64,000 nucleotides of DNA, taken from Calothrix sp. PCC 7103. Lineage in GTDB: Bacteria; Cyanobacteriota; Cyanobacteriia; Cyanobacteriales; Nostocaceae. Each line of letters starts with the position of its first letter. Positions within the stretch are counted from its first letter, which is position 1. The stretch spans positions 3,809,315 to 3,873,314 of the forward strand of contig NZ_KB217478.1 of NCBI RefSeq assembly GCF_000331305.1, read 5' to 3'. Of this stretch, positions 16,921 through 53,176 are shown piece by piece. Under the pieces are notes generated by a model that saw only the letters and a program-made list of their open reading frames with translations, was not told the DNA's origin and did no database searches. Both the position numbers and the translations under genes were made by a program.

Positions 16921-16979
16921 GTAGAGACGTTACATGTAACGTCTCTACCGGGACAGGAAATCAACCGGACGTGATATTA
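16921..16979. repeat. Palindromic repeat and half-MITE abutting the CHAT gene
   Basis: 16921-16948 is a perfect 28-bp palindrome (GTAGAGACGTTACA and its complement). It is followed at 16957-16979 by a sequence close to the terminal repeat of the element at 40707. The TAA stop codon of the 1661-residue gene (16979-16977) lies at the edge of this element. Confidence 0.65.
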
Positions 16980-19900: not shown

Positions 19901-21962
19901 TGCTGATAGGTCTGACGAATTCTTGGATAAAGACGAATTCTTGGATAAAATAGGGAGCAATATTAATATTACCTTCGCTAGAAGTAATAGAAATTACCCC
20001 CCCATTGCTTGCAGTGCCTTCAGATGCATTTGAAATTGATTCTATAGTACCCGTAGAAATGTTACCTTTGGCTATTAGGCTAATTGTGCCTCCACTGCCA
20101 GCGTTACCACCTGAATCAGCGCTTGTCTGTATAGCTTTTGTAGTGATACTGCCATTGTTAGCGCTAATGTTAACAGAACCTCCATTACCAGCATTGCTTC
20201 TAGCGCTTGTGGCTGCAATTATATTCTCAGTGCTGATACTGCCATTGCTACTATTAATGGTGATTGCACCCGCGTTACCTGTATTACTTATGAAACTTCC
20301 ACCAGTGAAAATAAAAGAATTGGGAAAGGCGCCTGTTATTATATTTCCTGTGGAGATATTGCCAGTTCCTTCTAAAATTACTCGACCACCATTTTGATTA
20401 ATTGTAGAAGTACTTGTGTTGATATTACCGACTTTAATACTTCCAGCAGGTAATCCTGAAGAGCTTGTAGGAGTGCTAAAGGATGTTCCTCCAGCGGAAC
20501 TAGGGAAATTGGTAGGAGTGGCAGAAGGCAAACCAGCACGTAAAATCAGGGCGCGACTGGTAGTCAAAGTAGTAAAATCTGGATCAGAACTGGGAATACT
20601 CGCACTTGTATCTGGAGAAGTAATGGTAATATTTCCGCCTTGAATACTACCTGTCGCTTCTACTTTTAGCGCTGCACCAGTATAATTACCAAACTGAACA
20701 TCCCCATTTGCCCTGATAATTGGGTCAAATAGACTGACAAAATTCCCGGCGCCACCTGCTAAATTACGAATTGCAAATTGTCCACCACTAGCAAAGTGAG
20801 CATCCCCAGAAATATTACCATCACTAACTAAAGTTAAATTACCTCCACTAATAAATGGTGTTTGTTGATGATTCAGTGCCAGAATATCAACACCTTTATT
20901 TCCCTGAATATAGAGATTTCTGCCAGCTTGTGCGACAAAGGGATTAGCTACACTATCGCGTACCGTTACTGTATCTTTTGCGAACAGGTTTAAATCACCT
21001 GTTGTTTGTAACTGACTTTCTGGCAATATTAAATTATTTGCAGCAGACAAAGTTGCATTTCCTGCAGTTACAGCTTTTGCGACTACATCTCCAGTATTTA
21101 CCCCAATACCCGAATCAGTAACTTGAACTTTTCCATTGCTGTTTACTGTCAATCCGCTAGTATTGCCCAAATCACCAGTCAAAAGCTCAGGCAAACTAGC
21201 GGCGGATATTTGACCATTCGCTACAGAGGAGGTCGCAATATCCAAACTCAGTACATTCCCTGGTTGGTTGATACGTAAAATATTTTCCCCTGATACAGCG
21301 GTGACGGTGAGGTTACCACCTGGCGCCGATAGCTGCCCGGTACTGACAACGGTGCCACCAAGTAAGGTTAAATTACTTCCATTTCCAACAGCTAAGTTAC
21401 CCAAGTTAACAATGCTACCCCCCTGCGAAGAGAAGCTAAAAGCATTGGGGTTTCCGATTAAGGCGTTGTAGTTATTATCACCAACAGCATTAAACCAATT
21501 GGCGCCGAAGCTAATGCCGTTGGCAGTAGTAGCGGTAAAGTCTGCTGGTACGTTTAAGCTGGCGTTGGCGCCAAAGATAATTCCAGCTGGGTTCATCAAG
21601 TAGAGATTAGAATTACCACCCGTAACTTGAATTAAACCGTTAATTACTGAAGGGTCACCACCAACAACTCGACCTAAAATATTTTGAATCTGGGGGTTAG
21701 AGAGAAAATTGGCAACTTGGTTCGAGTCAAGACCAAACTTTTGAAAGCTGTGGAAGAGATTGGCGCCTCCTGACAAAGTTCCACCAACAATATCAATGCG
21801 ATTACCGTTGGTTGTAACTTGAGTATTCGTACCGTCAGCAGCAGGAGTGATAGATTGTGCTTGGGCTGGACTAAGAATATTAATGCTTAAAAGAAATATT
21901 TGAGCGAGGGTGTGAAGAATAAATAACAGTAGGAAATTATTTTTTAGTGCTAGCAAATTCAT
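16977..21962 (-). CDS. Two-partner-secreted haemagglutinin-like protein with C-terminal CHAT protease
   Basis: A 1661-residue protein. After a signal peptide (cleavage near SPAQA) comes a TPS/FHA N-terminal domain (about residues 35-270) with the conserved block NLYLMNPAGIIFGANASLNV. Residues of about 270-1130 are a beta-helix-like repeat region with many GNAGNGGAITL-type units. A low-complexity linker leads to a CHAT (caspase-like) domain from about 1300. The catalytic dyad is intact: His1500 in HLATHADF and Cys1542 in LSACKTAFGD. The protein should cross the outer membrane through a TpsB pore, the best candidate being the gene at 23640, and expose or release a peptidase. Related fusions are known in cyanobacteria; the substrate is not. 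Confidence 0.9.
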   Translation of the reverse strand: MNLLALKNNFLLLFILHTLAQIFLLSINILSPAQAQSITPAADGTNTQVTTNGNRIDIVGGTLSGGANLFHSFQKFGLDSNQVANFLSNPQIQNILGRVVGGDPSVINGLIQVTGGNSNLYLMNPAGIIFGANASLNVPADFTATTANGISFGANWFNAVGDNNYNALIGNPNAFSFSSQGGSIVNLGNLAVGNGSNLTLLGGTVVSTGQLSAPGGNLTVTAVSGENILRINQPGNVLSLDIATSSVANGQISAASLPELLTGDLGNTSGLTVNSNGKVQVTDSGIGVNTGDVVAKAVTAGNATLSAANNLILPESQLQTTGDLNLFAKDTVTVRDSVANPFVAQAGRNLYIQGNKGVDILALNHQQTPFISGGNLTLVSDGNISGDAHFASGGQFAIRNLAGGAGNFVSLFDPIIRANGDVQFGNYTGAALKVEATGSIQGGNITITSPDTSASIPSSDPDFTTLTTSRALILRAGLPSATPTNFPSSAGGTSFSTPTSSSGLPAGSIKVGNINTSTSTINQNGGRVILEGTGNISTGNIITGAFPNSFIFTGGSFISNTGNAGAITINSSNGSISTENIIAATSARSNAGNGGSVNISANNGSITTKAIQTSADSGGNAGSGGTISLIAKGNISTGTIESISNASEGTASNGGVISITSSEGNINIAPYFIQEFVFIQEFVRPISISSYISLLSGAISENSAAGNGGAITLTANNGSITTGAIASVAYGDINRAGNGGAITLNAKNNVSIGSISESQARGLDTSGLLNGVDLPDELFIGPILSASIAGNGNAGSGGAVNITSSNGNITTAAILSVAGAGNGNVGDGGAINLTANNGSITTAALASLAGTGQGNAGNGGAITLSAKDNVSVGTTGILPGAISLLGILDELNLPEDSILNGISFPDEISTGPIEPIVSATGSINGNAGNGGEVKITSSNGNINTATILSIAGAGNQAGNAGAVTLDANGNVNTGVIASVAGAINNAGKGGNISITSKNNGINTGVIASGVYTQDGNIGNAGDINLSAKSDISTELIASVAYDNEGKFITGKGGNINITTSSFFRNTRTVGSLFNFLDEVNSIPELSNLVGGQTLADIQQSINEFKNTTKSVQNYSIGSYGRAGGGSVTIEHGGDQNTPFVVGDASKNGTAGGILTGGLLDVFASEIPAFKSIPGNFTEGNIRIIAKGPLTPAAPPLNDLELELLYNLTPNLEKQTQSTLGSNQLPLTNSNSELEISTFVEEIEAYATQQFQDYFGQQGEIPIKTVEDAQKLLRQIQSKTGVKPAVVYTMFTPQNYVPGSGARTRQQQASDLLDLVIVTGEGQPIRKQIPGATRAAVLSTLANFYYKISSAPENPNDTSYLPQAQQLYKWLIAPQEAELQKRGVKNLMFVTDAGLRKLPVGALHDGKQFVVQKYSLGLLPSLSLTDTTYVGVKNSQVLAMGSEEFTKEQNQFPLRAVPLEISTIAQKLWRGKYVLNQNFTLENLKRERAANAYGIIHLATHADFQQDKTKTYIQLYNSKLNFDDVRKLGWNNPPVELLVLSACKTAFGDTNSELGFAGLAVQSGVKSALASLWYVSDAGTLGLMTEFYRQLKSAPIKAEALRQTQISMIEGKVRVEDNKVLNTRGGVELTSKLATALQQQKIPANFSHPYYWAPFTMIGSPW

Positions 21963-22022: not shown

Positions 22023-23036
22023 CTAAAATAACCAACCAGGTGAAGGAGCATTTTCTCTTTGTCTGGGAGGAGTATCTTGAGGAAGCGGACTTGATGGAAA
22101 CGAATTTAATGGTTTTTTTACAGGTTCACTATGAACAAACTCCACAGCTGCATCATCTTCGGGTTCAATAATTATTGTTCTGGCGTTACAACCTCTAGTA
22201 GCAGCAGAAAAATTGAACGGTAATCCAGAGCGTTTAATACCCAACCTTCGATTTGGCTGTGATACTTTTGTTTCAAAACCCTGAATAGGAAAAGCAAATG
22301 CCAATCTAGTTTCGGCTCGGCTTATACCACCTCTTGTACTGCTACTTGTACCGCCACATTGTTGAACTTCTACAGATTGTGAACTAGAGGTTCCTGGTGT
22401 AACATTTTGGTGATAAATACCTACAACCCTACCTAATAAATCAAAAATTGGACTTCCGGTCATCCCAGTCCATGTAATTTTCGGTGTATTATCGAATGCT
22501 TCTTCATCACTTGGCTGTTCGCTTTCAAGTTGTGAAGTGAACTGAAAAACACGCTGTCTTACTGCTGCATCACGGTTGGTAAATCCTGCAACATAGAAAC
22601 CAGCGCACTTGTTTTTTGCATTCGACTCACAAAGGGTGGTGGTTTCATAAGCTAACTCGCTGCGAAATCGCACTAGTGCTAATTCTCCACCCGCCAATAT
22701 TTCAATATCTCTGTCAGGAGAGACCAGTATTTTTTGACGTTTTCTCCCCTGAGTTCTTTCTGAAAATGGAGTGATTATATAATAATCATTATTTTTGTTT
22801 TGTACTAGTTTGTTTGCTGTTAGTACAACATAAACATTTGTTCCTTGTTCCTGATAACGACCAATAATTACTCCAGAACCAACAGAATTAGCAGTAGGTT
22901 CAATTTGAACGACTGTTGCTCTCGCAATTTTGGCTACTTCGCTTGGAGTTAAAGCTTCTTGTGCAGAAACTTGACTTACTAATATCACCATTGCCATAAC
23001 GACAGCGCAGGCTGCTAAAAAATATCGATTTAACAT
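22023..23036 (-). CDS. Trypsin-like pseudoprotease, exported
   Basis: A 337-residue protein with a signal peptide (cleavage near VSA) and a trypsin-like fold. It aligns closely with the intact protease at 31676, sharing VGSGVIIGRYQE, VYVVLTAN, VFQFTS and GRVVGI. All three catalytic positions differ: His becomes Lys76 (TANKLVQ), Asp becomes Glu118 (GGELALVRF) and Ser becomes Thr193 (GMTGSPIFD). It is therefore probably a binding or decoy protein rather than an enzyme. A Pro-rich tail ends in PGWLF. It lies 60 bp upstream of the CHAT gene in the same direction, so cotranscription is likely. Confidence 0.85.
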   Translation of the reverse strand: MLNRYFLAACAVVMAMVILVSQVSAQEALTPSEVAKIARATVVQIEPTANSVGSGVIIGRYQEQGTNVYVVLTANKLVQNKNNDYYIITPFSERTQGRKRQKILVSPDRDIEILAGGELALVRFRSELAYETTTLCESNAKNKCAGFYVAGFTNRDAAVRQRVFQFTSQLESEQPSDEEAFDNTPKITWTGMTGSPIFDLLGRVVGIYHQNVTPGTSSSQSVEVQQCGGTSSSTRGGISRAETRLAFAFPIQGFETKVSQPNRRLGIKRSGLPFNFSAATRGCNARTIIIEPEDDAAVEFVHSEPVKKPLNSFPSSPLPQDTPPRQRENAPSPGWLF

Positions 23037-23154
23037 TACTCTTATCCTGGATGTACAAATTCAATTAAAGTCGTGAAATGTTGGCAATATTTATTTTGTA
23101 ATCAATAAACAAGGATAAAATAAAACTTCACAAATATGGGCGCGTAAGCGTTCA

Positions 23155-23185
23155 GATTCCCGACTTCTTCAATAAGTCGGGAATC
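23155..23185. repeat. Stem-loop repeat with 12-bp arms
   Basis: GATTCCCGACTT and AAGTCGGGAATC form a perfect 12-bp stem with a 7-base loop. Close relatives lie at 31621 and 34470. It lies in the 603-bp gap between the divergent pseudoprotease and tpsB genes, which otherwise holds a MITE and AT-rich DNA. Confidence 0.65.
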
Positions 23186-23217
23186 TAACTTTTTACAAAT
23201 GAATAGTTTATGATTAC

Positions 23218-23322
23218 TATAGCAATCCCATATGAGTTGTGAAAAATGTATCCACGTAGAGACGCGATTAATCGCGTCTCTACAGCGTGCGGATTTTACA
23301 AATGATTTAGGACTGCTATATA
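23218..23322. mobile_element. MITE, about 105 bp, with nested 28-bp palindrome
   Basis: The element ends in TATAGCAATCC on the left and GGACTGCTATA on the right and contains a perfect palindrome at 23256-23283 (GTAGAGACGCGATT plus complement). Read in reverse it matches the element at 44384 along its full length with few differences. It encodes nothing, so it would need a transposase in trans. Confidence 0.75.
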
Positions 23323-23639
23323 GATCGAAAATAGGGATAGTTCTGATTGCCGATATTTTATTACTTATTTATTAATATTGCAAGTCTTTATAGAGTTTAA
23401 ATGTTAAAATTATACATTTTATTTTTTTTGTAAAATAGATTGTTTAGACATTAAGCCATTTTTATATTTGCTTAATTTATTTGCTCAGTTAATATTGTTA
23501 CTATTTTCTGCAATTAAAGTATTGATTTGTGATTTAATCAACAATCAAAATATTTTGAATAATGTAGTATTTATAGCGTGATTTTCTCTCAATAACCGCG
23601 TCCATTTACAGATATTTAAATTTAATAGGATAAAATTTT

Positions 23640-25394
23640 ATGCAATTATCTTTGCGGCTGGGAGTTTTGTTGTGCGCGTTTTTAGCTCCTGGCGCCGTCT
23701 TGGTAATTCTTACTTCTCCAAGCAATGCACAGGTTCTGAGCGAAACTAGAGTAGAAACATTTGCACAGGCGCCAAACTTACAAGGAGACCCAAACCGTGA
23801 GCGGTTGCTTCCTGGTGCGCCAAACCCAGAACCCTTGGCGCCAGAAGTACAGCCTTCTTTGCAACCGGCTCCCACTCCAGAATCTTCACCAACACCTACA
23901 ACTGGTAGTATTGAGGTAAAAAAAATTGAGGTAAAAGGCAGTACAATTTTCAGTTCTAAAGAACTTAACCCAATAATTCAGCCATTTGAAGGTCGTTCCA
24001 CTACTCAAGAAGAACTAAAAAAGGCATTAGATGCTATCACTCAGTTATATCTGAATGGAGGCTACCTCACTTCACGAGCAGTTTTGGGGCAAATTAACGA
24101 TGGTGTTGTAGAAATTCGTGTTATTGAAGGTAGTTTAGAACGAATTGATATTCAAGGAACACGACGTGTATATCATGAATACGTGCGTTCTCGTGTGAAT
24201 TTGGGTGCTGCGAAGCCTCTTTCTTTAACAAAGTTAGAAGACCAGTTAAAGTTGTTACGGGCTGACCCATTGTTTGCCAACGTAGAAGCCAGCATACGTG
24301 CGGGAAGTCGAGAAGGTAAAAGTATACTCAGAGTGAGGGTTACCGAAGCTAACCCTTTTAACGCATCAGCTAGTGTAGACAATTACTCGCCTCCTAGTGT
24401 CGGTTCAGAAAGATTAGGTATAAGTGCTGCCGTTCGCAACGTCACAGGCGCCGGCGATGAATTTGCTGCTTCTTATTACCGTACAGCCCAAGGCGGTGCA
24501 AATACTTACGACCTCAGTTATAGGGTGCCAATGAATGCGATGAATGGCACTTTACAACTACGAGGTGTAATTAACGATAACAAAGTAATTCAGCCTCCTT
24601 ACGATGCGCTCGACATCAGCGGCGAGTCCAAAATGTACGAAGTTAGTTTCCGTCAGCCGCTAATCCGAACAACTCGTGAAGAATTTGCTTTATCGTTAGG
24701 CTTCACCACCCAAAGCGGTCAAACCTACCTCGGAGCAGAACCTTTTAGTTTTGTTAGTTTTGGCCCTGACAAAGATGGTTACAGTCGTACCAGCGTCGTT
24801 AAATTTGGACAAGATTATACCAAGCGTGATGTACAAGGAGCTTGGGGGTTGCGTTCCGCGTTAAGCTTTGGCACTGGTTTATTCGATGCTACCGTCAACT
24901 CAGGCTCAATTCCAGATGGTCGCTTTTTCAGTTGGCTAATGCGAGCGCAGCGAGTACAACGCTTGAATGATAATAATCTCTTAATTGCTCAAGCCGATTT
25001 ACAATTAACACCAAATGGTCTTTTGCCTTCCCAACAGTTTGTAATTGGTGGTGGTCAGTCTGTACGCGGCTTTCGGCAAAATTCACGAGCCGGTGACAAC
25101 GGGCTGCGATTTTCTTTAGAGAATCGAATTACAGTTCAGCGAGATGGTTCTGGAAACGCCATGCTGCAATTGGCGCCATTCTTTGATATGGGATATACCT
25201 GGAATGTGGATGACAACCCCAACCGTTTACAAAATCAAACGTTTATAGCTGGTGCAGGATTAGGAGTACTATGGAAACCTTTACCAAGTGTTAATGTGCG
25301 ATTAGATTATGGTTTACCCCTAATTAACTTGAAAGACCGGGGCGAAAATATTCAGGATAATGGTTTTTATTTCAGTGTAAGTACTGGGTTTTGA
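23640..25394 (+). CDS. TpsB/ShlB-FhaC family outer membrane transporter
   Basis: A 584-residue protein. The signal peptide ends near SNA; a Pro-rich linker (residues 55-85) leads to two POTRA domains (about 90-235). POTRA 1 starts SIEVKKIEVKGSTIFSS, and POTRA 2 contains ERIDIQGTRR. The rest is a 16-strand-type beta-barrel. The conserved loop motif is VRGFR in GGGQSVRGFRQNS, and the last strand ends FYFSVSTGF with a terminal Phe. It secretes a TPS-domain partner; the only one in view is the CHAT protein at 16977. It is divergent from that gene rather than in an operon with it. Confidence 0.92.
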   Translation: MQLSLRLGVLLCAFLAPGAVLVILTSPSNAQVLSETRVETFAQAPNLQGDPNRERLLPGAPNPEPLAPEVQPSLQPAPTPESSPTPTTGSIEVKKIEVKGSTIFSSKELNPIIQPFEGRSTTQEELKKALDAITQLYLNGGYLTSRAVLGQINDGVVEIRVIEGSLERIDIQGTRRVYHEYVRSRVNLGAAKPLSLTKLEDQLKLLRADPLFANVEASIRAGSREGKSILRVRVTEANPFNASASVDNYSPPSVGSERLGISAAVRNVTGAGDEFAASYYRTAQGGANTYDLSYRVPMNAMNGTLQLRGVINDNKVIQPPYDALDISGESKMYEVSFRQPLIRTTREEFALSLGFTTQSGQTYLGAEPFSFVSFGPDKDGYSRTSVVKFGQDYTKRDVQGAWGLRSALSFGTGLFDATVNSGSIPDGRFFSWLMRAQRVQRLNDNNLLIAQADLQLTPNGLLPSQQFVIGGGQSVRGFRQNSRAGDNGLRFSLENRITVQRDGSGNAMLQLAPFFDMGYTWNVDDNPNRLQNQTFIAGAGLGVLWKPLPSVNVRLDYGLPLINLKDRGENIQDNGFYFSVSTGF

Positions 25395-25395
25395 C

Positions 25396-26660
25396 TCTCC
25401 CCTCCCTAAAGGGTAGGGGATTCACTAAGAAGTTCTGCCGTATTTCTTAGTTATCCGTTTGTCAGACGAGTGATACTCAGCTATATCAAAAAGACACATC
25501 TGCTCACCACTCGTCCCAAAGGCATGGTTTCTGGGCACAACTCCAACGGTTGTTCTCTCCACAGACGTGACTTTCGCGCAGTCCGCACGTAGGGTTTTTT
25601 CATTTTTTGGGAAAACCAATCCCGCTTTTTTAGCTATTGTTCTGCTCGCTTTCGTGTCGGCGTGGTCGGTGTGACCGCAATTAGTACACAAAAACTTCTC
25701 ACCTTCACGGTTAGCTTTATCAATATGTCCGCACGCTGGACACTCTTGACTAGTGTGCTTGGGGTTAACAACAATTACATGTTTTCCTGCTTTCAAAGCA
25801 AGCCAAGCAATTTTATTATAAATATCTCCCCAACCACAATCTAGGATTACTTTATTTAATCCTGATTTTGCAGAGGCACCATTCTTTTTATATCCACCTT
25901 TACCATCGTGTTTTGGTTTGGCACGCTTGACCATGTTTTTAATTTTGAGGTCTTCACGTACCACAGCGTCACTCATTTTTACTATATCATTAGCTACTTT
26001 CCAATTGCGGCCATTTCTATTAGCCGCAATTTTGTGTTTAGTTCTAGCAAGCTTGATTACTGCTTTTTTTCTATTCTTTGAACCTTTAACCTTACGAGCA
26101 ATACTGCGTTGACGCATTGCCAAACGGCGTGCTGTCTTCTTGTTTGTTGCAGGTTTTGTATTAATAGCAAAGCTTCCATCTGAGAATGCTACTAGCTTAT
26201 TAACTCCAACATCAATTCCTACCACTGACTTAACTTTATCAAGTGGTATTTGGTCTTGAATTATATCTGGAATCTCTACAATTACAGAAATGAACCAGTA
26301 TGTCGCTTCTCTTGAAACAGTTACGCTTCTAATATCTGTAACTGAGCCAAATTCATATGACCGACTATTATGAAAATTTACATTCCCAATGCCAGGAAGA
26401 TAGATGGTAGCGTAGTTTTTATTAGTTAATCCAATCTTGGCTTGACCTGGCTTATATTCAAACGAATCAAGCCGAGTTACATAGCTTGGATAACCACGTT
26501 CGTGCTTAAAGAAGTTAGTGTAAGCGTCATCAAGTTTATTTAGATTAGTTTGCAATACAGCAGAATATATTTCTCCAAAGTATGGAGATTTAGCACGTAA
26601 TTCTGTAGTTACTTTTTGCTGTATACCACTTGCATCATCCCCGACAGTCACGGTACGGGG
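25396..26660 (-). mobile_element. IS200/IS605-type TnpB element, probably degenerate
   Basis: The tnpB frame is bounded by two hairpins. At 25396-25420 an imperfect CTCCCCTCCC/GGGTAGGGGA hairpin follows the tnpB stop, as expected for the right end that also forms the guide RNA scaffold. At 26639-26660 CCCCG and CGGGG flank the first tnpB codons like a left-end hairpin. There is no tnpA. The right end touches the tpsB stop codon, so a right-end guide would read into the end of tpsB. Exact ends cannot be fixed from one copy. Confidence 0.55.
25425..26651 (-). CDS. tnpB: TnpB RNA-guided endonuclease homologue, N-terminally truncated
   Basis: A 408-residue frame with a GTG start. The RuvC residues are present: Asp147 in [14 protein letters not shown], Glu233 in [10 protein letters not shown] and Asp332 in [13 protein letters not shown]. 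The zinc ribbon is CPACG (304-308) and CTNCG (322-326). Known TnpBs start about 60 residues earlier with an RLYPN-type strand and helix; here the homology begins at the equivalent of residue 60 ([20 protein letters not shown]). The first codons lie in a left-end-like hairpin, suggesting a deletion between left end and gene. The protein may be expressed but is unlikely to be a complete nuclease. Confidence 0.85.
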
Positions 26661-27128
26661 CTTTCAAGGTATTTTCTTGTAATGATTAAGGAAATAAACC
26701 AATTTCTATAATAATTTTCATACACATCATTGACTACTTTCAAAGAATCCAGATTTTTCTCAATTATTTTCACAGTAAAATTCCTAGTATATTACTTGGA
26801 TAAACAAAGATAAGTAAAATTGATATATTGATATATTGATATATAGCGTTTCCCGTTCTAATGAAGTATATAAAGGCGAGCAAGGATGCCCGCCCTACAA
26901 GAGATATATTGATTTAATCTGTACGTCACTTGACTAGGAACTGCTATAATTTACCTATATAGCTCGATGTAGATATGAGCTGAATAGATATCAATTCCCT
27001 ACATTTTTTGTTTGGGAATAACATGAATCACTTGAGTTTTGAGAGTTTTCCTGAAAATTGACCTTATTAGAGACAGAAATCACTGAGTAAATAGCGGGTT
27101 TGGGAGACTTTTTACGTAAGTCCTAAAC
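26661..27128. other. Non-coding gap with short repeats
   Basis: No credible gene. 26818-26843 holds three copies of ATTGATAT. 26875-26894 is a GGCGAGCAAGGATGCCCGCC hairpin of the type common between cyanobacterial genes. The segment from about 26842 (TATAGCGTTTCC) to 26951 (GGAACTGCTATA) has weakly inverted ends and may be a decayed MITE. Confidence 0.45.
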
Positions 27129-27440
27129 CTATTCACTCAATAACGAATCAAGATTCTCAAATATTATTTGAATATTTTCTTGATTCTTTCCATAAGCGAT
27201 GAGTGTTGTGGGCACAACACAAATACTCTTTATTTTTACCTCACCGTTTCTATCAATCTGTATTTCAATAATTTCACCAAATGACTTCCAACTCGTGGGA
27301 GCATGTGCCACAATACAACCAGTTGAAGAATTTGATTCTTCAACAGTGAAACCACAAATTTCAATGCTTTCTTGGCATTTTGTAAATAGGAGATTAAAAT
27401 CCGCTGCGAAATGTCGAGATACTTGGCAATTTGCTGTCAT
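27129..27440 (-). CDS. Small hypothetical protein
   Basis: A 103-residue protein without a signal peptide or membrane segment. Alternating hydrophobic stretches (GCIVAHAPTSWKSFGEIIEI, EVKIKSICVVPTTLIAYGK) suggest a small beta-rich domain, and a C-terminal amphipathic helix (NIQIIFENLDSLL) follows. It has cysteines at CQVS, KCQE, EICGF and GCIV. I do not recognise a family. It lies 73 bp downstream of the DM13 gene on the same strand. It could be real because the composition is protein-like, but no strong ribosome site is seen. Confidence 0.5.
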   Translation of the reverse strand: MTANCQVSRHFAADFNLLFTKCQESIEICGFTVEESNSSTGCIVAHAPTSWKSFGEIIEIQIDRNGEVKIKSICVVPTTLIAYGKNQENIQIIFENLDSLLSE

Positions 27441-27513
27441 TTTAATTATCCGTAAAGGTATTTATTAGTAAGTTCAGTTTCCAGGTATTTCTTCCATTGC
27501 CCCTAACATATGA

Positions 27514-28053
27514 TTATGACTGTTTTGTTAAGCTAGCAGCACCAAAAGTAGCGTTGAATTTACGGCACCAAATAGCAACCGATTTAAAATCATTTAGATT
27601 TACATTGTCAGGAATTTCATAGGTTTGAATGCCACTAAAGCTTTGCAAGGGAGAAATTATTACATAATCTCCCTGCTTAATAGGATAGGCAGGAGGTTCA
27701 GTTGAAGCTATAACATCAGATTCGCGATGCAAAATCACTACTAAGTCAGGCCCCATTGAAGAAGTCTTAAAATTTTTACTGAGTTGTAAGAAACGCTTAT
27801 TATTACGGTTAATAATTACAACTTTGCCGCTAGTTGGATGTTCACCGCTAACAAAATTACCGAGGCTAATAATAGACTGGTTTTTAGATTCAGTTGCTTC
27901 ACTGTTAAGGTTCTGAAATGTTTTTGTCTCCATCGACATTCCATTTTGATGTTGGGAATTTGCGATGACAGTAGTATAAATACCACCAATCACAATTACA
28001 ACACCAATCATTAAGCCTGCTATTGTTAGAGACTTTTTGTTATTCATAGTCAT
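27514..28053 (-). CDS. DM13-domain protein, membrane-anchored
   Basis: A 179-residue protein. A single N-terminal helix (LTIAGLMIGVVIVIGGIYTT) anchors or exports it. The DM13 domain occupies about residues 62-175: GNFVSGEHPTSGKVVIINRN, MGPDLVVILHR, YEIPDNVNLNDFKSVAIWCR and the closing FNATFGAASL. DM13 domains carry a conserved Cys (here in WCRKF) and are proposed to act in extracytoplasmic redox chemistry. A second DM13 protein is encoded at 36591. It is the probable last gene of a minus-strand group with the FHA-flavoprotein. Confidence 0.88.
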   Translation of the reverse strand: MTMNNKKSLTIAGLMIGVVIVIGGIYTTVIANSQHQNGMSMETKTFQNLNSEATESKNQSIISLGNFVSGEHPTSGKVVIINRNNKRFLQLSKNFKTSSMGPDLVVILHRESDVIASTEPPAYPIKQGDYVIISPLQSFSGIQTYEIPDNVNLNDFKSVAIWCRKFNATFGAASLTKQS

Positions 28054-28197
28054 AATTTTTAATTGTTTTATGAGATTACTGATTGAGGTAAATTCTTTTC
28101 GCGATACAGAAAATAATTATTAAATTCAATAATTTAATAATTTAGAAAGACGTAGTGATAGTAGTTGTATTCAAGCACAACTACTAACCCCAAATAA

Positions 28198-28647
28198 TTA
28201 ACTAACCTTGTTCCACTTACCAATCCATGCACCCCCACGATAGCGAGCGCGAGGGAACATGATCCGCATGACAACCCACGAAGCCATGTACATAAATACC
28301 CAAACTAGGCTATAGTGAATCGTATAACTTACCCAATTAAAGTTTGTCTTGGGAACATTGGGTAAATTAAAATAGTTAATAATTAATGCTAAAAATATAC
28401 CCTCAAAAATAGCACTAATTAGTTGAATTGCTCCGGGCCAGTCGTGGTCCCAAAGAAATTTTTGTAAGTAGGTGTAGAGAATATCCCAACCCAAACCAAA
28501 AAGACCGACGTAAAATAATACCCAAAAATATATTTGCTGAAATTGCTGTACTCCGTCTTTTAATGCAAAGGGGAGACTTACTAACACTCCAATAGTTGCT
28601 AGGAGATATATCCGAGATTGCCAGCGTCCAAATAATGTCGGTGTCAT
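28198..28647 (-). CDS. Small four-helix membrane protein, unknown function
   Basis: A 149-residue protein with four predicted membrane helices (around IYLLATIGVLVSLPFAL, YFWVLFYVGLFGLGWDIL, LISAIFEGIFLALIINYF and YSLVWVFMYMASWVVMRI) and a basic C-terminus. Aromatic residues are frequent at helix ends. No family recognised. The gene begins 38 bp after the FHA-flavoprotein gene ends, so it may be the membrane partner of that enzyme; this is inference from position. Confidence 0.65.
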   Translation of the reverse strand: MTPTLFGRWQSRIYLLATIGVLVSLPFALKDGVQQFQQIYFWVLFYVGLFGLGWDILYTYLQKFLWDHDWPGAIQLISAIFEGIFLALIINYFNLPNVPKTNFNWVSYTIHYSLVWVFMYMASWVVMRIMFPRARYRGGAWIGKWNKVS

Positions 28648-28685
28648 GGATAATTTACTTTATTTCCTAATCAGTACTATTATTA

Positions 28686-30728
28686 TTAAGGCTTTAAATT
28701 GGCAGCCCATTTAATCCATTGCCAAAGAGAGCCAAAACCATCGAGGTAACGGATTCCTGGCGCTCTCGCTACAACTAAAGCATCTGATGTTCTTTGAGCG
28801 GCATATTGCAACCCTAAGAAAGTATCGATTGCAGCATAGGGTCCCCCCAAAGTTAATACCCCACTAGCATATATTCTGCCTTTTTGATTCCGCATTTCCC
28901 GAATTTCAAAATCGTTGGCTACGTTCAATCCACCATAAGGAGAAAGACGTATACTATATTGATCAATTAGATCGGCAAATAAAGAATTATCTTGTGGTTT
29001 TGCTTCCAAACCTGTAGAGTCGATAATGAAATCTGCTTCTACTCTGAGCATTCCCTTATCTGTTTTTAGGAAAGAAAGCGGTTTACCTTGGGGAGTTTGT
29101 TCCACCTTCTCAACCTGACCAAATTCAATGGTGTACCATCCCTCGTCTAAACCTTTTTGAACTATTCTACGCCAGTCCGAGCGATCGGCTGTGGTGGTTC
29201 CACCCCATTGTTTAAGAAGTTCAAAGCGTTCCTGTGGGGAAGAAGCTTCTAGTTTCTCACGCATGTCTCCTCCCCAGGTGCCTTTGGGCCAATTATAGGG
29301 CTGAAATTCCCAGTGGTTTTCGACTTTACGTTGAGCTAGCCCATACTTATTGCCTTGAAGAACAGGTTTGCGCGTAAGATGGATAACCCTAATTTTGGGG
29401 TTTTTACGTCTGACTTCCGAAATTCTCTGGAGAATGCGAGAAGCCACAATTCCGCGACCACGTAAAATTACAGTTCCACCTTGTTGTTCTAGTTGCTTGT
29501 AAATGTGTTCATGTTTTTCATAGGCATTGACTACTGATTGGTAATCGCCTGTTTCTTGCCGATATTTTTGTAGATCTGGTAAAAATCTAATAGCTGGATA
29601 TCCTGTAGCAATCTGAACAAAACGCCCAACCATAAATCCATGAGTGCGTTGGGTTTCTCCAGGAACAGAATAAGCTACAGCATAACGACCATCATTAGTT
29701 TTACGAATTGCTCGGATGCGTCCATACCTCAACATTTCCGACCAGCCAATACGTTCTGCTTCTCTGTCTACAGATTCAAATACCTTTCCTGACATAGGAG
29801 TATAAGTATCCGCAAATACAGGTTCAGCAAAAACTTGCCAGAGATGCAGAAGAGCGGAAATAACTTGACCGGAACCGATTTCTCGCCAAGCTTCGCGCCA
29901 AGCGTATCCGGGCCAACCCCAAAGATTATCTGGACAGGAATCTGAACCAGAACGCAATCTCTCGTAGGGAGGAATTTGAGAATTTTGACAAAGACGTTGG
30001 TAACGGGCATAAGGTTTTTGTTCTAAACCAAGAACGGCAATTTTATCGGGTTTAACTCCATAAATTCTGATGTAGTCTACCCAAACAAAACTCCCCATCC
30101 CACCACCGAGTGCTAAGTATTCTTTTTCTTCGACTCTGTTTCCTGTTGCATATAAGGATTGCACGTCCACCAGTTGAGCTTTCATAAACTCTTCTGGAGG
30201 AAAAGCTGCTATGGTTGGTTCTGGTATAAAAACTTGTGAGTCAGGTTGGTCAGTTTCTGGGTGAAATAAAATAGTAGAACTAGAGGTTTCTGGTTTTGAT
30301 TGAGATTTGATCGCAGGAATACTGACAAAGGTTTCATCATTATCCTTGCCTAGTATTACTTGGGTTTGGTCAGGGATATAAACTTCGGTTCCTGCTGGTG
30401 GTATAAATAGAGTGACAGTCACTTCATAAGGACCTATTTGCAGGATATCACCACTATTTAGAGCTTGGCTAGATTTCTGCAATAAATTCCCATTTACCTT
30501 TGTACCATTAGTGCTGGTATCGCTAATAGTTACTTGAAGATTATCAAAGTAAATTAGGGCATGATGACCAGAAACTTGTTTGTGGGCAAAGATAGCTTTA
30601 GTAAGCTGTTGTCCGTTGTAGGTATCGGGTAAACGGACTATTTCTCTACCGATTGCTAGTGGTAAAGCAAATGTCTGCTGCTGTTCTTCCTGGTTGGTAG
30701 GTTCTTTCCAAGTCAGTGTTATTTCCAT
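28686..30728 (-). CDS. FHA domain fused to FAD/NAD(P)-binding oxidoreductase
   Basis: A 680-residue cytoplasmic protein. Residues 1-110 form an FHA domain: the Gly-Arg of LAIGREIVRL, the Ser-x-x-His of QVSGHHALIYF and the Asn of TSTNGTKVNG, the residues that hold phosphothreonine. A linker of about 90 residues follows. From about 200 there is a flavoprotein with Rossmann loop ALGGGMGSFVWVDY, a second nucleotide loop ILRGRGIVASRILQ and a late ASGVLTLGGPYAAIDTF motif. Redox activity would be placed under control of threonine phosphorylation. It lies between a second FHA gene and a small membrane protein on the same strand. Substrate unknown. Confidence 0.85.
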   Translation of the reverse strand: MEITLTWKEPTNQEEQQQTFALPLAIGREIVRLPDTYNGQQLTKAIFAHKQVSGHHALIYFDNLQVTISDTSTNGTKVNGNLLQKSSQALNSGDILQIGPYEVTVTLFIPPAGTEVYIPDQTQVILGKDNDETFVSIPAIKSQSKPETSSSTILFHPETDQPDSQVFIPEPTIAAFPPEEFMKAQLVDVQSLYATGNRVEEKEYLALGGGMGSFVWVDYIRIYGVKPDKIAVLGLEQKPYARYQRLCQNSQIPPYERLRSGSDSCPDNLWGWPGYAWREAWREIGSGQVISALLHLWQVFAEPVFADTYTPMSGKVFESVDREAERIGWSEMLRYGRIRAIRKTNDGRYAVAYSVPGETQRTHGFMVGRFVQIATGYPAIRFLPDLQKYRQETGDYQSVVNAYEKHEHIYKQLEQQGGTVILRGRGIVASRILQRISEVRRKNPKIRVIHLTRKPVLQGNKYGLAQRKVENHWEFQPYNWPKGTWGGDMREKLEASSPQERFELLKQWGGTTTADRSDWRRIVQKGLDEGWYTIEFGQVEKVEQTPQGKPLSFLKTDKGMLRVEADFIIDSTGLEAKPQDNSLFADLIDQYSIRLSPYGGLNVANDFEIREMRNQKGRIYASGVLTLGGPYAAIDTFLGLQYAAQRTSDALVVARAPGIRYLDGFGSLWQWIKWAANLKP

Positions 30729-30754
30729 AGTTATTTTTTAGACAAGAAAATGAT

Positions 30755-31243
30755 TTATTGGTTAGGATTAGGGAGAATTACTGTTCCTTGGGCTTGCAAA
30801 GAGACACCGCAGTGAGGACAAAAATCTCCTACGTAGTCATAAGATACAAAGTGTCCGTTGACGCATTGTAAGCCGTAAACTTGCTTGGCTTGAGTCCACT
30901 CAATATTTTTGATTGTTATACTGATTCTGCCTAACTTGATTACACTCCCAGAAGACAGAGGCACTTCCTCCAGGACAATCGCTTTCCCATCAACAATGAC
31001 CGAATTCGGATTTGGTCTGTTAATAGTCAAATTTTTCAACAGTAATTGATGCTTTTGTGAGTCATAACAGATAGCAGCATGTAAACGAGAAACCGATTTG
31101 GAACTATCGTTTATGACAATATCGCATTGTTTTTCATCTCGACCAATCAAAAACTTTCCTTTTTGTTTGGTATCATCTTTCGCTGAAAATGTTTGCGAAA
31201 GTTTGCGTCCCTCCTCAACCCATTCGAGAGAAAATTGATACAT
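30755..31243 (-). CDS. FHA domain protein with C-terminal zinc ribbon
   Basis: A 162-residue protein. The FHA domain covers about residues 25-115 with FLIGRDEKQCDIVIND and SVSRLHAAICYD; the phosphothreonine-binding Arg, Ser and His are present. The C-terminus contains CVNGHF and CPHCG, a likely zinc ribbon. It starts the group FHA / FHA-flavoprotein / membrane protein / DM13, with 26 bp before the next gene. It probably docks phosphorylated partners. The nearest kinase gene on the same strand is at 34504. Confidence 0.85.
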   Translation of the reverse strand: MYQFSLEWVEEGRKLSQTFSAKDDTKQKGKFLIGRDEKQCDIVINDSSKSVSRLHAAICYDSQKHQLLLKNLTINRPNPNSVIVDGKAIVLEEVPLSSGSVIKLGRISITIKNIEWTQAKQVYGLQCVNGHFVSYDYVGDFCPHCGVSLQAQGTVILPNPNQ

Positions 31244-31620
31244 GATTCTAGCTATTTACCTACTCATGAATAAAGATACTGGGGACATGTAATATCAAAT
31301 TTAAGCAATAATGTTCTTTAGAATCTAGGTTAAACTACACAAATAGTCTGATGACATTGTTAGAATTTTGTCAATAAAATTTACTAGCCACTCATATATA
31401 TATACTTCTGAATGCCATAATGATATGCAATATTGCCAGATAATTAAACCAAATAATTAAAAAGTTTAAAAATAAGTATTAATACATTGGTGCAAATTTT
31501 GATAAAAAAATGCTCATGTTTCAACTACTCGTCTTTTAGAACAGCACGATACAAATAAAAAACGTAATTAATCATAACCACAAAACCTGCCTTCTAGTTA
31601 ATTTGAGTGGATTTTTAAAT
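31244..31620. other. AT-rich non-coding gap
   Basis: No gene seen. It lies between the trypsin-like protease gene and the FHA group, both minus strand, so it should carry the promoter of the FHA group near 31250-31400. Short TA-rich runs (for example near 31396) are present, but no defined operator. Confidence 0.4.
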
Positions 31621-31695
31621 TCCCAATTTATTCAATAAATTGGGAATGTGAACACGCAACGAATCAATCATAATATTAGAACAATGATTGATTCG
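31621..31695. terminator. Two stem-loops at the 3' end of the protease gene
   Basis: 31621-31643 is CCCAATTTATT/AATAAATTGGG around a single C. It is a relative of the stem-loops at 23155 and 34470 with paired base changes that keep the stem. 31659-31695 is a perfect 12-bp stem (CGAATCAATCAT and complement, 13-base loop) that straddles the protease stop codon. No U-run follows, so a role in 3'-end stability is as likely as termination. Confidence 0.5.
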
Positions 31696-32731
31696 GTGCT
31701 GTATTTGGGCGATTTGGTCGATTAGGGCTAGGAATATTTCTAGGAGACGGTTTAGATGGCGCCACTGTTTGAGGTGTAATAGCTGGTTCTTGTTTATTTT
31801 CTTCTGCTGTTGCTTCTTCTTTTTCTTCAATATTTGTAGGCGGTGGAACTCTATTATCACCTCTTTGGGCAACAATAGTGCTAAATAAACCTGGCTCAGT
31901 ATTATCTATTTTTAAATTAAATTTTGTGATGTTACCCGATGCTTTACTTAAAAAAGTCTGAATGGGGATGCCCAAGTTAAATCCGGTTTTGTCTCCTGCT
32001 GTTCTTGGTGCCCCACTTTCTTGATTGTCTTGTGGTGATTCCGTTCGAGGCGCCACTTCCTCTCTGTCGCCTTGACCGTGAATACCTACAACACGACCTG
32101 ATACATCGAATACGGGACCACCACTCATACCAGCCCTAGTATTAGCGGTGTAACTAATTGCATATCCATTTTCAACAGGACTTGTTTCATCCTCAACAGA
32201 TTCACCATCTAAGCGACTAGAAACTAGAGAAGAAGTAAATTGAAAGACACGCTGTTTAATTGCGGCGCCGGGGTTAGGGAATCCAGCAACATAGATACCT
32301 GCTCCTTCTGTAGTAAATTTTGAATCACCAAGGGTGGCAGTTTGAAAATCGTTTTGGCTGCGGAATCTGACAACCGACAAATCTACACCAGGTAATTTTT
32401 GAATATCTTTGTCTGTGGAAATTTTAATTTTGAGGCGCCTTTTACCACTTCTAGTGTTAGTCGCTGGTGTAATAATGTAATACTCATCATCTTTATACTG
32501 AACAACGTGATTTGCTGTCAGTACAACATATACATTGTTTCTGCCTTCTTGGTAACGACCAATAATTACTCCGGAACCGGGTGAATTAATTGTAGGTTCA
32601 ATTCGTACTACAGTGGATTTAGCTATTTGAGCTACATCTGTTGGTAGCAAGGCTTGTCTGGCAAAGGCTGGACTTGCAATTACAATGGCTGTACCAATCA
32701 AGAAACTTGGTAGCAAATTTCGATTGAACAT
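31676..32731 (-). CDS. Trypsin-like serine protease, exported
   Basis: A 351-residue protein. Signal peptide with cleavage near AFA. Trypsin-like domain (about 35-270) with intact triad: His75 in VVLTANHVVQ, Asp117 in GVDLSVVRF and Ser203 in AGMSGGPVFD. The tail from about 290 is rich in Pro, Asn and Glu and ends NQSLF. It has no PDZ domain, so it differs from HtrA/Deg proteases. The pseudoprotease at 22023 is a close paralogue. It is followed on the same strand by the FHA genes and preceded by another protease and a COP23 gene. Likely periplasmic or surface-located. Confidence 0.88.
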   Translation of the reverse strand: MFNRNLLPSFLIGTAIVIASPAFARQALLPTDVAQIAKSTVVRIEPTINSPGSGVIIGRYQEGRNNVYVVLTANHVVQYKDDEYYIITPATNTRSGKRRLKIKISTDKDIQKLPGVDLSVVRFRSQNDFQTATLGDSKFTTEGAGIYVAGFPNPGAAIKQRVFQFTSSLVSSRLDGESVEDETSPVENGYAISYTANTRAGMSGGPVFDVSGRVVGIHGQGDREEVAPRTESPQDNQESGAPRTAGDKTGFNLGIPIQTFLSKASGNITKFNLKIDNTEPGLFSTIVAQRGDNRVPPPTNIEEKEEATAEENKQEPAITPQTVAPSKPSPRNIPSPNRPNRPNTAPNQSLF

Positions 32732-32780
32732 CTTCTTAATTCCTCCAATGAATTATGAAATATTAATTATGAATTATGGG

Positions 32781-33707
32781 CTACCATAAAGTCCTGAAAC
32801 GAGATTGGGGATTTACAGTATTTGAAGCTGGAAAGTCAGGTGCAAGCATCCTCGGCGCCGAGACTGGTGTCGTAGTTGAGGATGTTTGTACTTTTGGCAA
32901 AGAATTTATTGAGGTAGCAAATTGGGGAGCTTGCTGCAAAAATGTTTGTATCGGAATTGCCCAACTAGAGCGTTCCATTTGTGTTATTACTTCTGCAACA
33001 GGTGTAGTCCCATCTTTAAAGATGTAATTATTTCCCCAAAGTGGAAATTTCTGTCTACCGTTAATAGCGACAAGTTGTCCATAACGGTTAAGGACTGGTC
33101 CACCACTCATACCATTTAAAATGTCATTGCTATAACCCAATTGGTAGCCGCGTAAAAAAGCTTTAGGCAAAACATTGTCAACCTTACCAACCGTAAAAAC
33201 AAACCCGTTAGCTTCTAGAGGAAATCCAGCAGCATAGGTTTCATCTCCAACAGTTAATTTATATTTAGCTAAATTAGCAATTTGATAAGAATTGGCACTA
33301 CGAAAACTTAATAATGCCAAATCATCATCATTGAATTGAGCATTTTGATTGTGCGATGCTTGATAAATTCTCCCATCTGCTGTTTGAATGCGATAAGTTT
33401 TTGCTAAACTAATAACATGGTTGTTAGTTATAACTGTATAAGTTTGACCTTTTTTTTGAATTAAAATACCCGAACCCCAAGCATCTCCTACTAAGACTTT
33501 AACTGTAATCAACCGAGATGTAGCTTGCAGTTCCTTTAACGACAATTGCTGTTGCCTTTGGCTAAGTAAAATAGGATTTATACTCTCAGCATGCACAGCA
33601 ATTTCTGAAGAAAGAGCCTGTGTGGTTAGCCCAAAAAATACACTAACAACACAAGCGAAAATACTTATTATGCAACTAGGCATTTTGAGTTCAGAAAATA
33701 ATAACAA
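32781..33707 (-). CDS. Second trypsin-like serine protease, exported
   Basis: A 308-residue protein with a signal peptide; start at residue 1 or at Met9 (MPSCIISIF). The triad is intact: His97 in VITNNHVISLA, Asp129 in NDDDLALLSF and Ser201 in NGMSGGPVLN. Sequence similarity to the protease at 31676 is limited to the catalytic motifs, so this is a separate lineage. The tail is Ser/Thr/Pro-rich and ends FRTLW. It lies 49 bp upstream of that protease gene and 22 bp downstream of the COP23 gene, consistent with one transcript. Confidence 0.87.
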   Translation of the reverse strand: MLLFSELKMPSCIISIFACVVSVFFGLTTQALSSEIAVHAESINPILLSQRQQQLSLKELQATSRLITVKVLVGDAWGSGILIQKKGQTYTVITNNHVISLAKTYRIQTADGRIYQASHNQNAQFNDDDLALLSFRSANSYQIANLAKYKLTVGDETYAAGFPLEANGFVFTVGKVDNVLPKAFLRGYQLGYSNDILNGMSGGPVLNRYGQLVAINGRQKFPLWGNNYIFKDGTTPVAEVITQMERSSWAIPIQTFLQQAPQFATSINSLPKVQTSSTTTPVSAPRMLAPDFPASNTVNPQSRFRTLW

Positions 33708-33729
33708 TCAAGTTTACTAATAAGTTGAA

Positions 33730-34338
33730 TTAGAAAAGACCACCTGGTTGGTTTGGAGCTTTATTTGGAGTTGTTGGCGCCTCATCGCTTTGTTCTGCTT
33801 CTACAGAATCCACAAGTTGATTAATGTCAATAAAGGCACGACCAGAAGACTCTTGGATTGCTCTTGTTCCAGCTACACCTTGTCGCAAATTAGTCAGTTG
33901 CTGTAAAATTTCCGCAGTTTTCCTACGGTTATTTTTGTTGAGGGTAACTAAAACATTAGTTCTGTTACAGCCGATCTCTAAGCTAGTCGTAGCACAAACA
34001 ACAGGCTGATTGTTGACAATACCTGCGGTAAGGACAAACTGTGGTGTTCCTTGTTGGTTAGCTTGTCGATTTGATATAGCTAAACGATTAAATCTTTGAG
34101 CAACTTCTTGACAACGGGTCAAAGGGTCATACCCAGAAGCCGCAAAATCCCATGTACGCCAGGTAATTACTGGTTTTAGACCTAGAGGAGTTACAGCTAC
34201 TGTTGTTGGTTTACCCTTAATCCAGCGACATTCAAATCTGGGGGCGCCTTGAGCAGAACTAGGCGTAGTATTGATTACAGTTGCAAAACTACTTAAGAGA
34301 GCCACGCCAGTTACAACGCTTAAAAACTTACGTAACAT
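33730..34338 (-). CDS. COP23-domain exported protein
   Basis: A 202-residue protein. Signal peptide MLRKFLSVVTGVALLSSF with cleavage near SAQG. The rest matches the COP23 domain named after a circadian-oscillating cyanobacterial membrane protein: FECRWIKGKPTTV, PLTRCQEVAQRFNRL, VCATTSLEIGCNRTNVLVTL and SSGRAFIDINQLV. Four cysteines suggest two disulphides. The Pro/Asn-rich tail ends QPGGLF, like the protease tails next door. Function of the family is unknown. Confidence 0.85.
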   Translation of the reverse strand: MLRKFLSVVTGVALLSSFATVINTTPSSAQGAPRFECRWIKGKPTTVAVTPLGLKPVITWRTWDFAASGYDPLTRCQEVAQRFNRLAISNRQANQQGTPQFVLTAGIVNNQPVVCATTSLEIGCNRTNVLVTLNKNNRRKTAEILQQLTNLRQGVAGTRAIQESSGRAFIDINQLVDSVEAEQSDEAPTTPNKAPNQPGGLF

Positions 34339-36330: not shown

Positions 36331-36651
36331 TTGAAAAAATGGGCATTACACCAAATATTTTTATTTTATACTAAAATTTTATACTTATCAGAGTTTGACA
36401 AGCGACTCGAAGCAAGTTTCTTGCTACAATGGCAAGATAAACAACCTATTAGCAGTTATACTCAAAAAGCCACCATTAGTCAGCTTGGTGTTGCAGGTGT
36501 GATTGCCAAACCTTTTGACCCCATGACTTTAAACAAAGAAGTATCCGAGATTTTAGGGTTTACAACTGGTGGAAATCATAAAAAAGTAAATTATTGGCGC
36601 CTGGAATTACTACTACCCAAAGGTGCATATCCAAATGTCGTATTAAACTGA
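36331..36651 (+). pseudogene. Response-regulator receiver remnant
   Basis: The frame contains QLGVAGVIAKPFDPMTLNKE and SEILGF (about 36480-36560), which is the last helix-strand-helix of a REC domain including the conserved Lys-Pro. The sequence in front of it has lost similarity to a receiver domain and lacks the phospho-acceptor Asp, and the end runs into the DM13 gene on the other strand. I read it as a decayed gene end rather than a working protein. Confidence 0.65.
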
Positions 36652-53140: not shown

Positions 53141-53176
53141 AATTTTGTTTCAATAATATTAATACGTAGGTTGGGG

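Follow-up and report, generated by a model that had tools for sequence, protein, structure and literature searches.

The tailed proteins of the window

The subject of this analysis is a group of genes in a stretch of 64,000 nucleotides from Calothrix sp. PCC 7103 (contig NZ_KB217478.1, positions 3,809,315 to 3,873,314), referred to here as the window. Four exported proteins encoded there, three with a trypsin-type domain and one with a COP23 domain, finish in a Pro-rich tail whose last two residues are Leu-Phe or Leu-Trp. A preliminary description of this DNA had given the endings as PGWLF, NQSLF, FRTLW and PGGLF, and reading of the open reading frames (ORFs) confirmed all four and their places, on the minus strand. 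It had also counted four kinds of protein. The genes starting at 22023, 31676 and 32781 all match the Trypsin_2 profile, each above its cut-off of 27.6 bits, so the set comprises two unrelated folds, not four kinds, and the protease at 32781, which had been called unrelated, is a distant member of the same superfamily as the one at 31676. Throughout the analysis genes were taken as longest ORFs and signal peptides were called by a crude rule of our own; loci and genomes carry the handles L and G.

The trypsins fall into two subfamilies: A, with the protein at 31676 and its dead paralogue at 22023, and B, with the protein at 32781. Alignment shows the two A proteins to be 43% identical and all three triad residues of 22023 to be replaced (H to K, D to E, S to T), while the catalytic H, D and S are kept in 31676 and 32781. 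The best solved structures for trypsin B are Do/DegQ and cyanobacterial HhoA chains, which match over the protease domain. Pfam gave no PDZ profile in the four window proteins at E<=0.01. Since HtrA/Deg proteases may have 0–4 PDZ domains, according to a review, the window trypsins simply lack a usual feature of that family.

The COP23 profile PF14218 matches the fourth protein with E 1.9e-28 and 99.4 bits (curated cut-off 27), and the only annotation we met for this family was circadian oscillating protein. The AlphaFold model (mean pLDDT 73.5) has a mixed alpha/beta domain followed by the tail as coil of middling confidence. A fold search with it gave no convincing match, peptide-binding or other, which shows little either way, and no sequence match was found in the PDB.

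Read by eye, the four tails are rich in Pro, Asn and Ser and have neither a hydrophobic helix nor a basic end. Leu-Phe is spelled TTATTT, TTGTTC and CTTTTC in the window genes. Recent copying of one tail into four genes was considered, and five of the six pairs of tail DNA gave it no support against codon shuffles; the sole pair above its shuffles, 31676 with COP23, scored 14 against a maximum of 13 over 200 of them. The coordinates of the four genes, their tails and their context are collected in Table 1.

Table 1. Tailed proteins of the window, neighbouring genes, and natural fusions in other loci.
Feature	Coordinates	Strand	Remarks	Basis
COP23-domain exported protein, 202 aa	33730..34338	-	ends NKAPNQPGGLF	ORF and Pfam PF14218
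COP23 protein tail, Pro/Asn-rich, LF end	33730..33810	-	inner limit approximate	ORF, AlphaFold coil
Trypsin B, HtrA-type protease domain without PDZ	32781..33707	-	triad present; ends SRFRTLW	PF13365 E 6.7e-21
Trypsin B tail, Pro/Ser/Asn-rich, LW end	32781..32918	-	inner limit approximate	
Trypsin A, protease with intact TANHVV and GMSGGP	31676..32731	-	ends NTAPNQSLF	PF13365 E 2.8e-20
Trypsin A tail, Pro-rich, LF end	31676..31843	-	inner limit approximate	
Pseudoprotease, trypsin A paralogue	22023..23036	-	ends PSPGWLF	PF13365 E 1.5e-10
Pseudoprotease tail, Pro-rich, LF end	22023..22145	-	inner limit approximate	
Ser/Thr kinase with TPR repeats, directly upstream of COP23, untailed	34504..36264	-	context	
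Two-partner-secreted CHAT (caspase-like) protein	16977..21962	-	ends MIGSPW; context	
ShlB/FhaC-type outer-membrane transporter, presumed partner of the CHAT exoprotein	23640..25394	+	context	
Natural trypsin-COP23 fusions	L110 9884-11182; L131 9034-10272; L157 9820-11088		untailed	

The cassette and its ending across genomes

The genes for COP23, trypsin B and trypsin A are adjacent in Calothrix sp. PCC 7103 and in many other genomes, and we call this group the cassette. COP23 was present in 40 of 41 related genomes. Its survey covered 100 neighbourhoods (L059-L158), in which 103 of 146 COP23 matches were read; most of the 43 unread ones resemble a longer COP23 class that ends in FR. Trypsins B and A were searched for in 291 genomes of the order, and further cassettes were added. 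Two series of loci lean towards the tailed type by construction: L159-L238 were gathered with tailed queries, and L274-L353, which overlap partly with the earlier genomes, were ranked by likeness to the tailed trypsin B of the window. Cassette proteins that end in Phe or Trp (F/W) were seen in at least the families f1-f10, f14-f16, f21, f28 and f33.

A loss of the ending from orthologues does not hold as an argument against a signal, because the related cassette L099 keeps Trp on all its ends (SGSW, RRVW, GKLW); there are exceptions, such as L078, where the two trypsins end in RRAW and RRF and COP23 is without the ending. Phe is found throughout another cassette, L126 (SGMF, PLVF, GFMF). Trypsin A often has a long C-terminal extension instead of a tail, and the four that were checked (L070, L227, L201, L092) are TPR or WD40 repeats. 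Four fusions of a trypsin with COP23 were seen (L110, L131, L157, L140); in the three untailed ones of Table 1 COP23 sits where HtrA proteases have PDZ. The genome of the window (11.58 Mb, 12 contigs) has five COP23 and 24 Trypsin_2 matches, and by their coordinates three other COP23 genes in it adjoin trypsins. One of its trypsins (L072) ends in VRKF after a long extension, which is not a Pro-rich tail.

The terminal Trp or Phe is beyond chance. In the COP23 survey alone, W or F is the last residue of 20 of 88 tails, where about 4.6% is expected (p=2.7e-9), and if all 43 unread COP23 proteins are counted as lacking the ending the figure is 20 of 131 (p=2.5e-6). A wider set of 144 tails of at least 15 residues, from proteins shorter than 450 aa, dereplicated at 70% and including loci found with tailed queries, has W last in 35 (24%) and F in 28 (19%), against 1.1% W and 3.4% F in the interior of the same tails. 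The 80 named loci (L274-L353) were found by searching with trypsin B sequences, tailed and untailed ones in one alignment; at least one COP23 or trypsin is F/W-ended in 42 of them and at least two are in 26, and their 191 tails finish in W 70 times and in F 14 times. In the 84 F/W tails of this set the second-last residue is most often L (32), A (12), V (11) or I (8). The third from the end is P 17, R 15, L 10, S 9, G 8, T 6, W 5 and N 3 times, with rarer others, and over up to 29 residues before the last one P makes up 18% and P, Q, S, N, G and T together 57.5%.

The ending is kept while the linker drifts

At the largest distance compared, the ending was kept while the linker before it drifted. 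At 60-75% domain identity, the 258 homologue pairs in which one member or both are F/W-ended agree in 54% at the last residue, in 27% at the one before it and in 13% over linker positions -9 to -20; in 158 of these pairs both members are F/W-ended. The corresponding figures for 434 control pairs without F/W ends, in the same identity range, are 25%, 18% and 13%. No p-value is given for the homologue pairs because pairs share sequences.

The endings of COP23 and trypsin B also go together, taking only the last residue into account. In 98 dereplicated cassettes COP23 and trypsin B both ended in F/W in 15 cases, COP23 only in 13, trypsin B only in 4 and neither in 49 (odds ratio 14, p=8e-6).

The ending marks cassettes, not exported proteins in general

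The preliminary description had looked to the exported proteins as a class for an excess of the ending, and none was found there. A sample of 244 kb of the window's genome (190 ORFs, 70 with a signal-peptide call; half of its ten stretches are the window or cassette loci) has F/W last in 9 of the 70 exported ORFs and in 10 of the remaining 120. Nine of the exported proteins have Pro-rich ends, and the four of these that are F/W-ended are exactly the four window proteins; among six non-exported Pro-rich ends the one with F/W is the CHAT protein. Beside cassettes, leaving out COP23 and the trypsins themselves, exported neighbours with a Pro-rich end had F/W last in 12 of 28 cases in tailed loci and 1 of 11 in untailed loci, a comparison weaker than it appears because Pro-rich F/W ends are not rare in proteins without a signal-peptide call. 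The sample and the neighbour comparison rule out a general export mark; the ending belongs to the cassettes.

In another reading the tail directs export or targeting to the outer membrane, and is recognised as the terminal aromatic residue of barrels is, or by a secretion system. The signal read by the beta-barrel assembly machinery (BAM) is a last barrel strand with alternating hydrophobic residues up to a terminal aromatic. The cassette tails have a terminal aromatic, preceded by residues of which P makes up 18%, and that of COP23 is modelled as coil. In favour of a targeting signal, most carriers have a signal peptide by our crude rule, and two other exported ORFs of the window, ShlB (VSTGF) and 15614-16708 (VSYQF), end in F. 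Against it, W is as common as F or commoner (35 to 28, and 70 to 14 in the named loci), Pro-rich tails are ill-suited to closing a strand, and there are kinases with the ending beyond their membrane span. We consider a targeting signal of this type quite improbable.

The same ending on other folds and on kinases

Several unrelated proteins beside cassettes have the ending. CAP proteins end in SDYLW (L059), SERLW (L233), NTLW (L296) and PDAW (L295, with no signal-peptide call), a papain-family protease in L233 in PQPLW, DUF4344 metallopeptidases in KRDLW (L065), PGLLW (L344) and GIYW (L372), and VWD proteins in PLPF (L101) and GLPF (L344). Three F/W-ended neighbours, two in L228 and one in L233, had no Pfam match.

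In three Ser/Thr kinases (L236, L229, L128) the kinase domain is followed by a membrane span, recognised in the sequence, and then by an outer part that ends in DQPLF, LEPLF and NEGIW respectively, and this order suggests that their tails lie outside the cytoplasm. Homologues of the outer domain of the L236 kinase occur at 30 places in 27 of the 291 genomes. Of 18 places read, some of which resemble proteins other than kinases, six end in PPLW (twice), QPLW, GSVW (twice) or DPLF, one of these (L365) having no Pro-rich linker; two more (L364, L356) have F or W last and no such tail, three run through the stretch without a stop codon, and the remaining seven have other ends. In L372/L373 COP23 ends in GIKW, the metallopeptidase in GIYW and the adjoining L236-like domain in GSVW. 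The kinases of the window's genome do not follow this pattern: 30 of 88 matches were taken, 11 were cut by the end of the locus, and of the 19 readable ends the only W (L265) lies inside a shortened, untailed kinase domain.

DUF4344 proteins make it possible to compare one family beside and away from cassettes. They occur at 41 places in 36 of the 291 genomes, and the ends of 20 places were read. In ten of these a trypsin B gene lies no more than about 8 kb away, and every one of the ten proteins continues past the domain, mostly in a stretch with much Ser, Pro, Asn or Gly; eight of them end in W and two in Y (SDPLY, WGDY). All ten elsewhere stop within a few residues of the domain, with W or F last in none; the nearest COP23 to any of these lies about 19 kb off (G237), and one (G112) is 0.9 kb from a 411-aa trypsin that is itself 0.9 Mb from COP23. 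The difference has p=1.1e-5 for tail against no tail and p=7e-4 for W against not W, with an effective n smaller than these counts because relatives and paralogues are included (L380/L381 have identical ends; L377/L378 are paralogues). One genome (G117) has a tailed and an untailed DUF4344 protein, and three more cassette members of the family (L065, L372, L373) are also W-ended. That the tail is present beside the cassette and not elsewhere fits a receptor that exists independently of any single carrier.

These comparisons also bear on the idea that nothing recognises the tails, which would be inherited low-complexity ends with the aromatic residue as a historical accident. Homologous cassettes do go back to common ancestors, and descent connects the samples. 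Against an accident stand the last residue kept while the linker scrambles, the common end on unrelated folds, and the difference between DUF4344 proteins beside and away from cassettes, and we regard it as very improbable.

A proposed C-terminal docking motif as the best explanation

We put the probability at roughly 0.7 that the tail serves for docking through its C-terminus, as a motif that is specific to the cassettes and works in the periplasm or envelope. The sequences themselves show the common ending, its retention over a drifting linker, its occurrence on unrelated folds and, in the DUF4344 family, its presence beside the cassette and absence elsewhere. A disordered linker of about 20–60 residues, usually rich in Pro, Ser, Asn, Gln or Gly, would hold out a free C-terminus that in most cases is [L,A,V,I]-W or -F. 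It is carried by COP23 and trypsins A and B, in other genomes also by CAP, papain, DUF4344 metallopeptidase and VWD proteins, and by some membrane Ser/Thr kinases of the neighbourhood at their outer end. Binding to one common envelope receptor would then hold proteases, pseudoprotease and sensor kinase together. The receptor binding, the periplasmic site and the single receptor for all tails are steps that we infer. Recognition in the periplasm is favoured over export to the outer membrane because the kinases carry the tail beyond their membrane span. The C-terminal sorting or docking signal of the preliminary description thus keeps its docking part, through the selected end on unrelated folds, its persistence as the linker scrambles and the DUF4344 contrast, and becomes a cassette tag in place of a general export signal.

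A number of results weigh against this reading. The pair comparison draws on sequences related by descent, and the lead of the last residue over the linker narrows in closer pairs: 64% to 47% at 75-88% domain identity (controls 41% to 27%), and 83% to 67% at 88-98% (controls 75% to 60%). Many COP23/trypsin cassettes are untailed, including the other ones of the window's genome, and some have the ending on one member alone, as with trypsin A in Trichodesmium. Within cassettes the association is not clear for COP23 with trypsin A (both 13, COP23 only 14, A only 11, neither 30; p=0.12) or for trypsin B with A (10, 6, 11, 24 in the corresponding order; p=0.06), and the choice between W and F is matched weakly (W-W 17, W-F 2, F-W 5, F-F 4; p=0.06). 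Neighbours without a signal-peptide call have Pro-rich F/W ends in 8 of 47 cases in tailed and 9 of 51 in untailed loci. Lastly, clustering the neighbours of 33 tailed and 77 untailed loci found no gene constant enough to be the receptor; tailed there means any F/W-ended COP23 or trypsin and includes the doubtful L072, L143-L145 and L151. ShlB genes occur in 5 and 5 of these loci and kinases in 14 and 30.

For the PDZ-like or outer-membrane receptor guessed at earlier, the neighbour genes of tailed cassettes offered no constant candidate, and the third residue from the end (P-2) misfits PDZ classes I and II. As putative receptors we prefer first a periplasmic PDZ protein of the HtrA or Ctp type, then a cassette member such as the COP23 or trypsin domain.

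With the first candidate, the tails would be read by a PDZ domain that belongs to a periplasmic protease of the house-keeping kind (HtrA/HhoA or Ctp); they would recruit cassette proteins to it or be activating ligands, as the ends of outer-membrane proteins are for DegS. PDZ ligands have a hydrophobic last residue, and at P-2 either S/T (class I) or a hydrophobic residue (class II). The cassette tails have the hydrophobic last residue, W or F, by choice of the set. At P-2 they have P, R, L, S or G, neither consistently hydrophobic nor S/T, and because of these residues the classical class I and II patterns are not matched, a misfit that also tells against docking as we propose it. A house-keeping receptor would account for the gain of tails by unrelated proteins, and the cassette trypsins are HtrA-type protease domains without a PDZ of their own. 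According to two papers, PDZ domains are able to bind protein carboxyl-termini (PMC4877387) and contain a carboxylate-binding loop (PMC11642142). On balance we consider a house-keeping PDZ receptor doubtful, though a serious possibility.

With the second candidate, a COP23 or trypsin domain would bind the tails, so that the members form a complex of their own or block one another's active sites with a product-like aromatic end. Tailed cassettes usually contain COP23 and a trypsin, the two are fused in four proteins (L110, L131 and L157 of them untailed), and trypsin A often has its long C-terminal extension where others are tailed. The COP23 model, however, shows its own tail as coil, a tailed kinase (L375) has no COP23 or trypsin within the 5 kb read around it, and some tailed trypsins occur in a locus with no COP23 called (L302); the missing fold match for COP23 is of little weight either way. 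A receptor inside the cassette seems to us unlikely.

The tail might also be a turnover tag by which a C-terminal processing protease limits the lifetime of the cassette proteases. Being unfolded, it would offer such a protease an easy hold, and Prc and CtpA/B possess a substrate-binding PDZ domain according to one paper (PMC6686036). A degradation tag on COP23, a CAP protein and a kinase alike seems less economical than docking, and we judge turnover to be improbable, slightly more so than the targeting signal discussed above.

Returning to the docking motif, a more specific version of it is tentative, and we would hold it at somewhat below even odds. In this version the tails would form an undescribed cyanobacterial docking code, [L/A/V/I]-W or -F on a Pro-rich linker, read by a dedicated periplasmic pocket that assembles a kinase-linked, extracytoplasmic proteolytic complex, with tails gained de novo by proteins that are recruited to the cassette. 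With the same degree of hesitation, the members of the complex may be COP23, active and dead trypsins, metallo- and cysteine proteases, CAP and VWD proteins. If this is true, a two-residue C-terminal tag would identify the parts of an uncharacterised exported protease/kinase system from sequence; the tag would be the first handle on COP23 and would point to a new envelope receptor. Its small size and terminal position make it open to test by deletion of two residues.

Comparison with known C-terminal signals

Narrow searches of open-access literature found no description of such a tail. C-terminal signals common to unrelated exported proteins are known in other systems: LPXTG and PEP-CTERM combine a sorting motif, a membrane helix and a basic end, and the C-terminal domain of type IX secretion cargo is folded. 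The window tails resemble these in being shared by unrelated exported proteins and differ from LPXTG and PEP-CTERM in having no hydrophobic helix and no basic end; we know of no signal of these types that ends in a Pro-rich linker with a terminal W or F.

The ligands of the HtrA/DegS/DegP PDZ domains likewise present a free hydrophobic C-terminus that is read in the periplasm, and the cassette carriers include HtrA-type protease domains without PDZ. Known ligands are mostly ends of misfolded outer-membrane proteins, whereas the cassette ends are fixed parts of a gene cassette and misfit classes I and II at P-2. The C-terminal tail of SSB is a disordered linker with a short hydrophobic, carboxylate-bearing docking tip. 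The cassette tails share the linker and the hydrophobic tip and differ from SSB in that the latter is cytosolic, with an acidic tip and DNA-repair partners.

The nearest functional parallel we saw is the C-terminal tryptophan of McdB, the carboxysome positioning protein, which is needed for carboxysome association in the cytosol and can be substituted by other aromatics with graded success (PMC11321042). There too an adaptor is docked to a larger structure through a motif at its C-terminus, in which the tryptophan is invariant. McdB is a cytosolic, single adaptor system, and the abstract of that paper describes no tail shared by unrelated exported proteins (PMC11321042).

Other endings and neighbouring genes

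COP23 proteins have several other endings. In L101, L112, L115, L206, L209-L211 and L217 they end in REL or RDL, and trypsin A in most of these loci finishes with LPF or WPF, which usually follows a stretch that looks helical (in L115 it ends in REL). REL/RDL with LPF/WPF may be a second class of paired endings, and so an alternative tag. In several Nostocales (L316, L317, L322-L324, L327, L328, L334-L336, L342) COP23 ends in CPxGxPxWEC or nearly so, possibly a disulphide-closed C-terminal tryptophan loop that may be another alternative tag. Another conserved end, LNPxxFR or close to it, marks a class of COP23 proteins of about 235-290 aa (L004, L055-L058, L108, L118, L120), and divergent COP23-like proteins (L143-L146, L149) end in WWFF, WWPF, WWPWK or WWPFK.

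An exported pair recurs beside tailed cassettes (L227, L230, L231, L234, L235, L237); one protein is barrel-like and ends in GYNFTFGR or similar, the other is helical, and neither had a Pfam match in L227. They are possible local partners. Long ORFs that end in IGSPW or IGNPW, like the CHAT protein of the window, lie near tailed (L099, L220, L223, L224) and untailed cassettes (L134, L136, L137, L139, L140) alike, so these CHAT-type proteins, whose identity was checked with Pfam for the window and L099, are associated with the cassette and not with the tail.

Within the window, a pair of FHA-domain proteins (28686-30728 and 30755-31243) lies between the pseudoprotease and the cassette, with homologues near COP23 in L076 and L137, and two DM13 proteins (27514-28053 and 36591-37064) flank the cassette. 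A TnpB-type protein (OrfB_IS605 / Cas12f1-like TNB; 25425-26651, minus strand) separates the ShlB gene from the rest of the cluster, and an RRXRR and HNH protein (PF14239, PF01844; 38205-39602, plus strand) is of a kind that we take to be IscB-like. At 53112-53502 on the minus strand, short overlapping ORFs of the repeated unit NGTRYNRGNPGNAVPPTARATTGGTPATRCL are probably a tandem repeat array.

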